The notes under the pieces: model-generated
What the model saw: only the letters and a program-made list of their open reading frames with translations
Told to the model about the DNA's origin: nothing
The model's database searches: none
Made by a program: the position numbers and the translations under genes
Shown: positions 32,890 to 60,244 of the stretch, in pieces
Layout of the letters: each line of letters begins with the position of its first letter
Numbering within the stretch: the stretch's first letter is position 1
NCBI GenBank assembly: GCA_039182125.1
Contig: JBCDCH010000001.1
Coordinates: 62,001-126,000, forward strand
From: Planctomycetota bacterium
GTDB taxonomy: Bacteria > Planctomycetota > Phycisphaerae > Tepidisphaerales > Tepidisphaeraceae
DNA length: 64,000 nt
Direction of reading: 5' to 3'

Positions 32890-34494
32890 ATGCGTCGAGC
32901 ATTGAAGCTTTTGTCCGTCTTCGTAACGCTCACGCCGGTCTGGCTGGTCCTGGCATGGCTGGTGTGGACGTTCGCCGCAACCCGCGCGATGGAGGCCGGG
33001 CACCAACGCCTGCTCGATGCCGACTTCGGATTCGACGTGGTGACCGCCCAGCAACGCTTGGGCGACATCCCCGACGACCGCAACGCGGCACCGATCATCG
33101 ACAAGGCCGTGCAGTCACTCGTGCTCGAAACCGCCGCCATGCGTGAGACTTATTGCAGCGACCTACATCTCGTTTCCTTGCAAGACGAACTCTCTCAAAC
33201 GCCGCAGGAGCAGACGGAGATGTTACGGGTGGCCGAGATCGCGACATACATCGACGCCGGGCTGACTTCCGAGCAGGCGATCGTCGCGGTCGCAGAGCAT
33301 GGGTTTGCGACGACGGTGTACCCGAGCAGTTGGCAGGCCGCGGTCGTCGCCGTCGACGACAACTCAGCAGCTCTTCAAGAGCTCTTCCCACTTGAACAAC
33401 TGGCCGAGGGTCATCGCGTCGAAGCACGTCGGCCGCATCCGTATCGCAATCTCATTTCGGTGATGGAGATGATCGACGCGCAGCTGCCGCATCTTGAGGC
33501 CGTTGGCGAATTGAACCGACTCGTGTGGATGTCGGCCGCCTTGAAGTGGCACGACGGCGACCACGCCGACGCGCTTGCGACAATTCGATTGATCGAGTTT
33601 CACGCCCAGGCCTTAGGCAGTTCAACACACGTTTGGCTCGACGGGGTTTACGCGCTCAGTTCGCACACGGTGGCGGCGGAACGTGTCGCCGAACTGCTGC
33701 CTTGGGTCGATCTGTCGGACGCTTCGGTTTGTGCCGAGGCCGAGATTTGGTTGGCCATGTTGCTCGATGACGATCCGATTAACGTCGCGTTGACCAACGC
33801 CATCGCCGGCTCAACAGCCGTGGCACAAACGAAGCTCCGTCACGACGACGCGACGGCGTTTGGGGTTGTCGGCCGACCGGCCCACCGACAAAGCGCCGCC
33901 GACCTCGCCGACTACGCCATCGAGTTGAAGCAGGCGTTGGATCAAGCGGGGACAATGGCCGAAACCGAGGCCAAACTTCCGCCCGAACCCGAGAGTTGGT
34001 ACGGCACCATCGCGTACATCATGGCGAATCCGGTGTACGGCCGACATGCGGCAGAGATGCGGTTTCGGTCCGAGCGAACGCGCTTGCTCGCCGCGACGGT
34101 CATCGCAACCTCGCTGTATCGAAACGAGCACGGCGACTGGCCCGAATCGCTCTCCGACTGTGTGCCGGACTACTTGCCGGTCGAGGCGATCAACCCCATG
34201 ACCGGCACACCGATCCGCTACAGCTCCGGCGACGAGGTCGATCCCCGTCCACGCGTTTGGACCGTCGGCCCGGACGGAGAAGATGACGGCGGGCGTGCGC
34301 CGGTCGACGATCGTGACAGCGATGCTGACAACGTCCGTTATCTCGACTCTGGCCCGCCGCCACCACGCACCTGGTGGGTCGCTACGCACCGTGACTCCGC
34401 CGGTGTTACAATCGCCCCATGGAGCAGCCGGTCCCGACCAACAAGCGCTACACATGGGAGGAGTATCTCGCGTTCGAGGAGAGCTCACCGGTGA
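32890..34494 (+). CDS. Membrane-anchored protein of unknown function
   Basis: 534 residues from the ATG at 32890; in-frame upstream starts lack support. One N-terminal membrane helix (LLSVFVTLTPVWLVLAWLVW) is followed by a helical soluble region. Near the end, RTRLLAATVIATSLYRNEHG and DWPESLSDCVPDYLPVEAIN form a pattern seen in planctomycete proteins with a pilin-like C-terminal part. The last ~40 residues are low-complexity (SRSRPTSATHGRSISRSRR) and overlap the Uma2 gene by 76 bases, so the true end may be earlier and a late frameshift is possible. Function unknown. Confidence 0.8.
   Translation: MRRALKLLSVFVTLTPVWLVLAWLVWTFAATRAMEAGHQRLLDADFGFDVVTAQQRLGDIPDDRNAAPIIDKAVQSLVLETAAMRETYCSDLHLVSLQDELSQTPQEQTEMLRVAEIATYIDAGLTSEQAIVAVAEHGFATTVYPSSWQAAVVAVDDNSAALQELFPLEQLAEGHRVEARRPHPYRNLISVMEMIDAQLPHLEAVGELNRLVWMSAALKWHDGDHADALATIRLIEFHAQALGSSTHVWLDGVYALSSHTVAAERVAELLPWVDLSDASVCAEAEIWLAMLLDDDPINVALTNAIAGSTAVAQTKLRHDDATAFGVVGRPAHRQSAADLADYAIELKQALDQAGTMAETEAKLPPEPESWYGTIAYIMANPVYGRHAAEMRFRSERTRLLAATVIATSLYRNEHGDWPESLSDCVPDYLPVEAINPMTGTPIRYSSGDEVDPRPRVWTVGPDGEDDGGRAPVDDRDSDADNVRYLDSGPPPPRTWWVATHRDSAGVTIAPWSSRSRPTSATHGRSISRSRRAHR
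34407..34412 (+). promoter_or_regulatory. Predicted leaderless -10 element of the Uma2 gene
   Basis: TACAAT (five of six consensus bases) lies six bases before the ATG at 34419, inside the 3' end of the preceding gene. Confidence 0.4.
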
Positions 34495-57651: not shown

Positions 57652-58563
57652 ATGTCAGCAACCGCACCTTCCACTTCCACCCAAACGCCGAAACCGGCAG
57701 ACCTCGACCCGGCGCATCTGGAAGCCCAGCTCGAAGAGGTTCAATCCCTCGTCGACGCATTGCAGGGCGAAATCGAGTTGCTCCGTCGGCGTGATGAACA
57801 GATTCAATTCCAGATCGGGCAGATGGACGAGGAGATGCGGCTGGCGGCGAAGCTGCAACGCGACTTCTTGCCCAAGAAGCTTCCGCAAGTCGACTGCGTG
57901 AGCTCCCATGTGCTCTTCCGGCCGGCCGGGTATGTCAGCGGCGACTTCTACGACGCCATGCGGCTCGATGAACACCACATCGGGCTCTACCTCGCCGACG
58001 CCGTCGGTCACGGCACCCCCGCCGCCCTGCTGACGATGTTCATGAAGAACGCCCTGCTCACCAAGCGCATTCAGGGCAAGCACTACGAACTGGTGCCGAC
58101 GAGCGAAACGATGTGCCGGCTCAACGACACGCTCATTGAGCAAAATCTCACGCTCTCGTGCTTTGCGACGGCGGTGTTCGGTCGGCTCGACTGTCGAACA
58201 CTGGAGTTCGTTTTCTCGCGCGGCGGGCACCCCTTCCCGATTCGCATCTCCGCAGACGGTGACATCCAGCACTTGGAGTCCGACGGCGGCCTGCTCGGCA
58301 TCATGCCCGAGGAGACCTTCCCCGAGGCCCGCATCCAACTCGAGCCCGGCGACCGGTTGATCCTCTATTCTGACGGCGTCGAAGTCGCCTTCGCCGACGA
58401 CGGCATCGGCGACATGCGGCACTGGTACAAGTTTATCGAAGAACAACGCTACCGCTCCGCCGAGCAGATCCTGGAAGCGGTCGACGCGAAGCTCGCCCAA
58501 ACCACCGGGAGCCTCGCCGCCAAGGACGACCTGACGGTACTGGCGATCGAAGTGGCAGGTTAA
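57652..58563 (+). CDS. SpoIIE/RsbU-type PP2C serine phosphatase
   Basis: 303 residues. An N-terminal coiled coil (EAQLEEVQSLVDALQGEIEL) leads into the phosphatase domain with MRLAAKLQRDFLPKKLPQVD, the metal-binding aspartates in YVSGDFYDAM and YLADAVGHGTPAALL, and the distal LILYSDGVEVAF and KDDLTVLAIEV. Such enzymes dephosphorylate anti-sigma-factor antagonists in partner-switching pathways. No antagonist or kinase gene is nearby. It is divergent from the GAF sigma-54 activator. No clear ribosome binding site precedes the ATG. Confidence 0.93.
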   Translation: MSATAPSTSTQTPKPADLDPAHLEAQLEEVQSLVDALQGEIELLRRRDEQIQFQIGQMDEEMRLAAKLQRDFLPKKLPQVDCVSSHVLFRPAGYVSGDFYDAMRLDEHHIGLYLADAVGHGTPAALLTMFMKNALLTKRIQGKHYELVPTSETMCRLNDTLIEQNLTLSCFATAVFGRLDCRTLEFVFSRGGHPFPIRISADGDIQHLESDGGLLGIMPEETFPEARIQLEPGDRLILYSDGVEVAFADDGIGDMRHWYKFIEEQRYRSAEQILEAVDAKLAQTTGSLAAKDDLTVLAIEVAG

Positions 58564-58639
58564 AGAACGGTCGAAAGCATGGTGACGAACGGCATTCAAC
58601 ATGATGTTTGCGGGGTTGGAAGAAAAATCAAAATACATG

Positions 58640-58660
58640 TTGACACAGACAAAGTGCCAA
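58640..58660. promoter_or_regulatory. Possible MarR operator over the -35 region
   Basis: TTGACAC (58640-58646) and GTGCCAA (58654-58660) form an inverted repeat with one mismatch around seven bases. It covers the -35 element and the spacer, a position suited to autorepression. Confidence 0.45.
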
Positions 58661-58668
58661 CGTATGAT
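58640..58668 (+). promoter_or_regulatory. Near-consensus promoter of the MarR gene
   Basis: TTGACA (58640-58645), 17-base spacer, TATGAT (58663-58668). Six bases separate the -10 element from the ATG at 58675, so transcription should begin at or beside the start codon. This is the strongest promoter seen in the window. Confidence 0.75.
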
Positions 58669-58674
58669 TGGCCC

Positions 58675-59202
58675 ATGCCAACTGCGGCTCCCAAATCGAA
58701 GCGCCCCCGCGGTCTTGCCGACGAGATCGGCAAAGTTCACGACTTCGAGCAGGTCGAACACGAGGCATATCTCGATCTGATCCGCACGCACGACATCCTC
58801 GCGGCGGGTCATGCCGAGAAGTTCGCACGGCACGGACTGAGCAGTCCGCTGTTCAACATCCTGAGCATTCTCCGCGGCCATGAACGCCGGGAAGGACCGG
58901 GGCACGAAGGTGTGCCGGTTTACACCGTCGGCCGGGAGATGCTCACCCGCGAGCCTGACATCAGCCGGTTGGCGGACCGGCTCGAAAAGCTAGGCCTGGT
59001 CAGCCGACATCGGTGCAGCGAGGATCGGCGGGTGGTCCGCCTTCGGCTGACCGATGAGGGCCGACGGGTCCAGGAAGAGGCGGCGCGCGAGTCGATGGAC
59101 CTGATCCGTCGGCAGTTCGAACACCTCGGCCAAACCAAGAGCCGACAACTTAGCCGCCTGTTGTGCGAGCTGCGCAACCCGCCGGCCGCCGACGTTGATT
59201 AG
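58675..59202 (+). CDS. MarR-family transcriptional regulator
   Basis: 175 residues from the ATG at 58675; the longer frame from 58579 would run through the promoter. The winged helix includes GLSSPLFNILSILRGHE, EPDISRLADRLEKLGLVSRH and the wing CSEDRRVVRLRLTDEGRR. MarR proteins often sense phenols, quinones or oxidants. DoxX and SnoaL-like genes follow on the same strand. A near-consensus promoter ends six bases before the ATG and there is no Shine-Dalgarno sequence, so the mRNA is probably leaderless. Confidence 0.92.
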   Translation: MPTAAPKSKRPRGLADEIGKVHDFEQVEHEAYLDLIRTHDILAAGHAEKFARHGLSSPLFNILSILRGHERREGPGHEGVPVYTVGREMLTREPDISRLADRLEKLGLVSRHRCSEDRRVVRLRLTDEGRRVQEEAARESMDLIRRQFEHLGQTKSRQLSRLLCELRNPPAADVD

Positions 59203-59277
59203 CCCCATTGTTCCGCCTCCGCGTTTCTCTTCCGCGTCCCGATATACGTTTCAACACATTATGTTAGGAGTCACATC

Positions 59278-59763
59278 ATGTTCGCAACACCCACGCTTTC
59301 TCCCACCGTCCGGGCCGCCGGGCTCGATGCCGGCTTGCTGGTGATCCGCCTCGCGCTGGGCATCGTCTTCTTCTACCACGGCGGCCAGAAGCTCTTGGGC
59401 CTGTTCGGCGGCGGCGGGCTGGCCGGGACCGCCGCGTTCTTCGAGAACGTGGGCATCCCCTTCCCGCAGGCCAACGCCGTGATGGCCGCATCGGCCGAGT
59501 TCTTCGGAGCGATCGCCCTTTTAGCCGGCGTGGCGACTCGCTTCGCCGGACTGACCCTCGCCGGCGTGATGGCCGTGGCGATCATCACCGTCAAGTGGGG
59601 CACCTTCGCCAACACTGCCGGCGGCATGGAGTACCCGCTCACCCTCGGCCTCATCGCCATCGCCCTGCTGCTCACCGGCCCGGGGCGGCTGACGCTGCCG
59701 AGCCTCATCACCGCCATCCGCGGGCACCGGACTCAACCCGCAGCCGCGCCCGCAACCGCCTGA
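59278..59763 (+). CDS. DoxX-family membrane protein
   Basis: 161 residues with four hydrophobic segments: LLVIRLALGIVFFYHGGQKL, VMAASAEFFGAIALLAGVA, LTLAGVMAVAIITVKWGTF and YPLTLGLIAIALLLTG. The FYHGGQKL and AEFFG motifs are family hallmarks. Members are linked to redox and quinone or thiol stress. A TTAGGAG site lies before the ATG. It follows the MarR gene by 75 bases; ATACGTT and TCAACA, both present in the MarR promoter in opposite orientation, lie just upstream (59244-59256). Confidence 0.92.
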   Translation: MFATPTLSPTVRAAGLDAGLLVIRLALGIVFFYHGGQKLLGLFGGGGLAGTAAFFENVGIPFPQANAVMAASAEFFGAIALLAGVATRFAGLTLAGVMAVAIITVKWGTFANTAGGMEYPLTLGLIAIALLLTGPGRLTLPSLITAIRGHRTQPAAAPATA

Positions 59764-59806: not shown

Positions 59807-60244
59807 ATGTCCTTCTTCAACACCCTCCGTCGCAGCCTCGTCGCCGAACCCTCGAGCGCGGCCACCGGCACGTCACTGCAGGCTCGCGTCGATGACCTGC
59901 TCGAGCACATCCGCACCGGCCGCATCCTCGACGCGATGAGCGAGTTCTACGACGACGACACGGTCATGACCGAGCCGAACTATGGCGACACGGCCGGCCT
60001 GGCGGCCAACATCGAACGCGAGAAGGCGTTCCTCAGTCAGGTCAAGCAGTTCAAAGGCTTCGAGACACCGGCCGTCGCGGTCCACGAAACCGCCCCAGGC
60101 ACCGGCGTGGCCCTCATCGAGAACGCCCTGGAGTTCATCAACACCGACGACCAGGACGTCCGCATGGAGCAAGTCAGCGTTCAACGCTGGCGCGACGGCA
60201 AGATCGTCCACGAGCGGTTCTACTACGACCGCGGCGGCAACTGA
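59807..60244 (+). CDS. SnoaL-like (NTF2-fold) protein
   Basis: 145 residues. QARVDDLLEHIRTGRILDAM and SEFYDDDTVMTEPNYGDT are typical of the SnoaL/NTF2-like fold, and EQVSVQRWRDGKIVHERFYY is its C-terminal strand pair. Members can be isomerases, hydrolases or simple binding proteins; no catalytic residue is assigned. An AAGGAG site precedes the ATG. It is the third gene of the MarR-DoxX-SnoaL set, 43 bases after doxX. Confidence 0.88.
   Translation: MSFFNTLRRSLVAEPSSAATGTSLQARVDDLLEHIRTGRILDAMSEFYDDDTVMTEPNYGDTAGLAANIEREKAFLSQVKQFKGFETPAVAVHETAPGTGVALIENALEFINTDDQDVRMEQVSVQRWRDGKIVHERFYYDRGGN

Follow-up and report, generated by a model that had tools for sequence, protein, structure and literature searches.

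A predicted leaderless, autoregulated marR gene with an operator over its -35 hexamer and a second operator upstream of doxX in a planctomycete genome

The marR unit analysed here joins an already known type of regulatory unit. In Corynebacterium glutamicum the MarR-type regulator CrtR is negatively autoregulated, a leaderless transcript has been reported for it, and it controls a neighbouring operon (PMC5401885). The marR unit resembles it in the MarR-type repressor, autoregulation, leaderless transcript and control of a neighbouring operon, all of which are predicted from sequence here, so that such a combination is already on record for this protein family. According to the available portion of that report, CrtR differs in its divergent gene order, its TTAA-containing operator motif, crtR promoter motifs that were not easily found and its ligand, isoprenoid pyrophosphates (PMC5401885). 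In the acuR-acuI-dddL unit of Rhodobacter sphaeroides translation of the leaderless repressor is lower than that of the genes behind it (PMC3017554). In that unit, as in the arrangement predicted for marR, the repressor gene comes first, the mRNA starts from its AUG, an inverted-repeat operator lies over the promoter and the following genes carry Shine-Dalgarno sites, but AcuR belongs to the TetR family, responds to acrylate and has the operator TAATAGAC-n6-GTCTATTA, the only one described in the available excerpts (PMC3017554). The marR locus is no AcuR unit, in which a TetR-family repressor is followed by acuI; its protein is a MarR, the next gene encodes a DoxX, and only the layout is alike.

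MexR of Pseudomonas aeruginosa is described as binding two sites that overlap its own promoter and that of its target operon (PMC9892617). It shares with the unit described here the MarR family, the two sites, the own and target promoters and GTTGA half-sites, but the MexR motif is given as GTTGA-N5-TCAAC, compared with ATANTYGTTGCAACRANTAT here, and its target is an efflux operon (PMC9892617). CvkR of Anabaena is likewise a small repressor made from a leaderless mRNA, but it is of the MerR type, has the motif AnnACATnATGTnnT and, in the text available, controls a CRISPR-associated transposon (PMC9938897). The conserved operator and geometry predicted below were not found described in literature searches on MarR with DoxX, pirin and YceI or on Planctomycetes, leaderless genes and transcription start sites. 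A search linking the operator GTTGCAACAA with MarR returned only publications with unrelated titles, and no published description of a MarR operator or regulon in Phycisphaerae was found among the best 10 of 123 literature matches.

The window, a stretch of 64,000 nucleotides, belongs to a 4.13-Mb genome in 131 contigs with a GC content of 64% (in a 463-kb sample of this genome). On its plus strand marR (58675..59202, 175 aa) is followed by doxX (59278..59763, 161 aa, PF07681), a snoaL-like gene (59807..60244, 145 aa, PF12680) and an ATP synthase gamma gene, all in the same orientation; doxX and the snoaL-like gene are the likely targets. The MarR protein matched PF01047 with 29.8 bits (cut-off 24.6) and PF12802 with 27.7 (cut-off 27), and its best solved relative was 3u2r_A (E 7.5e-18). 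No named NCBIfam equivalog was found among 11 matched models, none of which came near its own cut-off. The better of two matches in the named collection was to a Phycisphaerales MAG (51% over residues 28-148). An open frame of 416 aa on the minus strand (57655-58905) runs antisense to a SpoIIE-type phosphatase gene and marR and misled the gene finder; it is probably a by-product of the high GC content.

A preliminary description of this DNA had read the promoter TTGACA-N17-TATGAT, followed by six bases and ATG, directly at the marR start, and all of these elements were confirmed. The -35 hexamer TTGACA (58640-58645, plus strand) and the -10 hexamer TATGAT (58663-58668, plus strand), separated by 17 nt, were read in the sequence and also given by a promoter scan and a genome pattern count, and the six bases 58669-58674 separate TATGAT from the ATG at 58675-58677. 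With a score of 11/12 this was the sole plus-strand site of at least 10/12 in the window, the minus strand having one at 10/12. The pattern TTGACA-N16-18-TATNAT occurred 5 times in the 4.13-Mb genome, compared with 0 for the control, and with an ATG 4-9 nt downstream it occurred twice, again with 0 for the control. The marR promoter exceeds chance and is exceptional for this genome; the label of a very strong promoter, used in the preliminary description, should be read as a consensus match only. Just upstream of the -35, at 58620-58635, lies an A-rich stretch in an otherwise GC-rich genome, possibly an UP element. Only one further case of TTGACA-N17-TATNAT directly before an ATG was seen in the pattern search of the same genome (L036, C45:9883-9920, minus strand; TATTAT, six bases, ATG), in front of a frame which we take to resemble a prepilin-type protein.

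A published survey describes, in other bacteria, leaderless genes that are preceded by TANNNT at a distance of about 12 bp (PMC3160421). The signal and distance are those of marR; Planctomycetes are named nowhere in the text of that survey. For Planctomycetes, leaderless and/or S1-dependent initiation has been suggested from one species, as far as the accessible text goes (PMC5397173). Leaderless signals were counted in 463 kb of the source genome (20 stretches plus the window), in which 336 genes were predicted as the longest open frames of at least 150 codons, with starts picked by codon usage; marR itself is absent from the 336, as the gene finder chose the antisense frame there, and other false genes are likely among them. 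TANNNT stood exactly 6 nt upstream of the start in 25 of the 336 genes, compared with 0.94 expected per offset from the TANNNT rate 13-65 nt upstream of starts, and at 5-8 nt in 44. Only 1 of 1597 internal in-frame ATGs had TANNNT 6 nt upstream. A leaderless gene class thus very likely exists in the source organism, and the 44 of 336 genes indicate a sizeable class in this planctomycete-like genome. Three further predicted starts in the window, at 32890 (+), 34419 (+) and 37011 (-), are preceded by TANNNT at 5-8 nt and mark candidate leaderless genes. Another predicted leaderless start was noted at L105:15401 (TATTGT, 6 nt, ATG), where the palindrome GCACAAC-TTTC-GTTGTGC lies upstream of the -10.

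The marR gene has the leaderless signal of its genome, a TANNNT-type -10 about 6 nt before the start and no Shine-Dalgarno site, together with a near-consensus -35, and a leaderless reading is therefore likely and would be ordinary within this genome. The leaderless translation proposed in the preliminary description is accordingly well supported, by the genomic class in which exactly 6 nt separate the -10 from the start and by orthologous marR genes with the same arrangement; the marR mRNA very probably begins at its own start codon, the predicted leaderless ATG at 58675. It is quite improbable that transcription starts farther upstream and that an in-frame ATG at 58579 or GTG at 58654 is used instead: the marR frame is indeed open from 58579, but such a start would put the promoter inside the coding region, the strong genomic leaderless class shares the marR spacing, and relatives start near the same place.

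The inverted repeat TTGACAC-N7-GTGCCAA, proposed earlier as the operator, can be read at 58640-58660, where one of its seven pairs is mismatched. When 58630-58678 was dinucleotide-shuffled 2000 times, 45% of the products contained an inverted repeat of the same class (7 bp, at most one mismatch, loop 0-12), as did 45% of 1305 tiles cut from the window, and TTGRCAC-N7-GTGYCAA with at most one mismatch was found at 2 places in the genome, a number equal to the control. As the repeat was not significant alone, orthologues of MarR were collected. A family alignment was searched against 298 genomes of the class, of which 78 gave a match at E 1e-20 or better, and loci from further searches were added. 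Of 66 distinct loci scored, 49 with more than 150 bits were kept, the window included, and 17 scoring below 121 bits were left out of the counts, the truncated L085 being one of these; some genomes supply more than one orthologue, so that the 49 loci are not 49 independent species.

Expectation-maximisation on the 140 nt upstream of the conserved domain of these 49 orthologues gave the palindrome ATAGTTGTTG|CAACAACTAT. Its log-likelihood was 301, compared with 33-35 in five base-shuffled sets, which keep base content only and were searched from 15 seeds rather than the 40 used for the real set. In the window the motif corresponds to ATACATGTTG|ACACAGACAA at 58633-58652 (matrix score 12.4), with its dyad at 58642/58643 in the middle of the -35 (TTG|ACA). 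This marR site is among the weaker operators, others scoring up to 21. A conserved palindrome thus lies across the marR promoter and is the predicted operator over the promoter of the repressor's own gene. That the operator is instead exactly TTGACAC-N7-GTGCCAA, bound by one dimer, is highly improbable; the repeat exists with its single mismatch and most of its pairs lie within the promoter, but it is within chance, its genome pattern is no commoner than the control, and the motif conserved among orthologues comprises other bases and is centred elsewhere. The repeat was therefore rejected as the binding unit, while there is good support for autorepression from an operator over the -35, with that operator at 58633-58652 and a second copy upstream of doxX. 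The preliminary description was on the whole partly supported, being right in outline (near-consensus promoter, leaderless start, self-repression over the -35) and wrong on the operator bases.

The second copy, ATATACGTTT|CAACACATTA at 59242-59261, lies outside the training regions and is the best position in the window. With a matrix trained on the 48 other loci it scored 13.5, followed by 58633-58652 with 12.4, the third site reaching 8.2. The same two sites led the window with two further, hand-made matrices, one from 17 spacer sites of other loci (L051 omitted, L040 added by eye) and one from downstream sites of other loci, of which 16 out of 22 were used. Thirty block-shuffled windows had a mean maximum of 8.5 (sd 1.6) and a highest value of 14.0. 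As a shuffled window can reach 14.0, the weight rests on the placement of the two sites and not on the score alone; the decisive point is that the two best sites of the window both flank marR.

This pairing recurred among the orthologues. Of the 49 loci, 34 had a site scoring above 9 in the 160 nt before the conserved domain (15 had none) and 21 had one in the 400 nt that follow the marR stop, the downstream sites not being part of the matrix training; 19 loci had sites on both sides of marR. Control stretches contained a site in 0/49 and 0/47 cases, with two high sites just outside them (L083 at -193, L074 at +572). At the former, which precedes the conserved domain by about 193 nt and so lies farther away than in other orthologues, the operator palindrome is perfect, TTAGTTGTTGCAACAACTAA. 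Neighbours in the fetched flanks of the 49 loci, the window counted, included pirin relatives (13), SnoaL (9), DoxX (8) and YceI (6), the pirin and YceI queries having been identified by Pfam. For a MarR group distributed over the class, these data predict the sequence of the operator and the nearby target genes, and the MarR repressor most likely controls itself and doxX.

MarR-family proteins can activate. Abstracts on SlyA and RmaH state activation for those proteins, and the promoter scan found no plus-strand sigma-70 promoter upstream of doxX. Even so, it is unlikely that the palindrome belongs to another regulator or that MarR activates, with no autorepression: the motif was found by following the marR family, precedes marR in 34 of 49 loci, and covers the -35 or the spacer in 27 of 31 loci, which fits repression. 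Under the preferred reading, repression by MarR, doxX may be carried on the marR transcript, in which case its operator would act as a block; alternatively, doxX may rely on a weaker promoter. A Shine-Dalgarno-like AGGAG (59266-59270, plus strand) was read in the sequence 7 nt before doxX.

In the 31 loci with both an operator and a promoter, the operator lay on the -35 in 10 and in the spacer in 17. Measured from the start of the -35, its centre lay at 3 bases in 10 of them, the window being one, at 16 bases in 12, at 18 bases in 5 and elsewhere in 4, the resemblance of the -35 consensus to the operator core favouring the register centred on the -35. The distance from the -10 to the start codon was 5-9 nt in 15 of the 31 loci, exactly 6 in 10 of those, and an ATG stood 6 nt on in two more; the remaining 14 loci had a longer distance (11-55 nt) or no assignable start. 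A tree of the 49 proteins was poorly resolved: 28 of its 46 inner branches stayed open, and it required no fewer than 7 register changes and 6 leader changes (labels entered by hand, L040 and L046 judged by eye), and therefore no argument was drawn from it.

A second, weaker candidate operator was found in the window 15 bp downstream of the first, at 58648-58667, over the spacer and -10. The two cores are GTTGACAC (58639-58646) and GTGCCAAC (58654-58661), and among the 66 offsets compared around the primary site that of the second scored best. Over the 12 core positions in the loci with the operator on the -35, offset +15 had the highest mean of 66 (-0.5; next -6.0; overall -10.4, sd 2.3) and came first in 5 of the 10 loci, including the window; exceptions were L033, where it ranked 43rd, and L043, with a second core at +12. 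The second full site in the window scores only -1.2 (top 0.3% of positions), so that the tandem operator is no more than probable. Each core is nearly palindromic, so that two in tandem look like one long inverted repeat, and the repeat noted earlier is probably made up of two such cores, which belong to tandem operators spaced by 15 bp. The chances are about even for a wider reading, in which operator core (GTTGNNAC) and -35 (TTGACA) would be the same bases in part of this planctomycete MarR lineage; across the class the operator would occupy a few fixed registers (3, 16 or 18 bases), often with a core copy 15 bp away, while the start codon would alternate between a place directly after the -10 and one behind a leader; this would be a natural series of operator moves and leader loss or gain under the same repressor. 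Because the registers are few and discrete, one repressor and a small number of natural promoters would suffice to test the geometry in which promoter and operator are superposed.

Taken together, 58633-58678 is most likely the promoter-operator of an autoregulated, leaderless marR whose product also represses doxX-snoaL. The computation supports the promoter, the conservation of the operator, the paired operators and the genomic leaderless class; we infer binding, repression rather than activation, the exact 5' end and the signal. RNA polymerase would use TTGACA-N17-TATGAT and start at or next to the A of the ATG at 58675, and the ribosome would begin on the 5' end of the mRNA without a Shine-Dalgarno site. 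A MarR dimer would bind the 20-bp palindrome 58633-58652, whose symmetry axis bisects the -35 hexamer, and a second dimer may occupy the weaker site over the spacer and -10. Binding would exclude the polymerase and so repress marR itself, while MarR at 59242-59261 would repress doxX-snoaL. A signal would release the repressor, marR then being expressed from its leaderless message and doxX through the Shine-Dalgarno-like site. Judging by the neighbours DoxX and SnoaL (in relatives also pirin and YceI), the signal is perhaps an electrophile, quinone or oxidant. By analogy with the AcuR system, translation of the leaderless MarR would be lower than that of the genes downstream of it.

Within the source genome no wider regulon is claimed, as WTANNYGTTNNAACRNNTAW with at most 2 mismatches occurred at 13 places, compared with 13 for the reversed control. 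The next-best match after the marR and doxX sites was at C37:29918, with a score of 12.1, at the first codons of a small frame.
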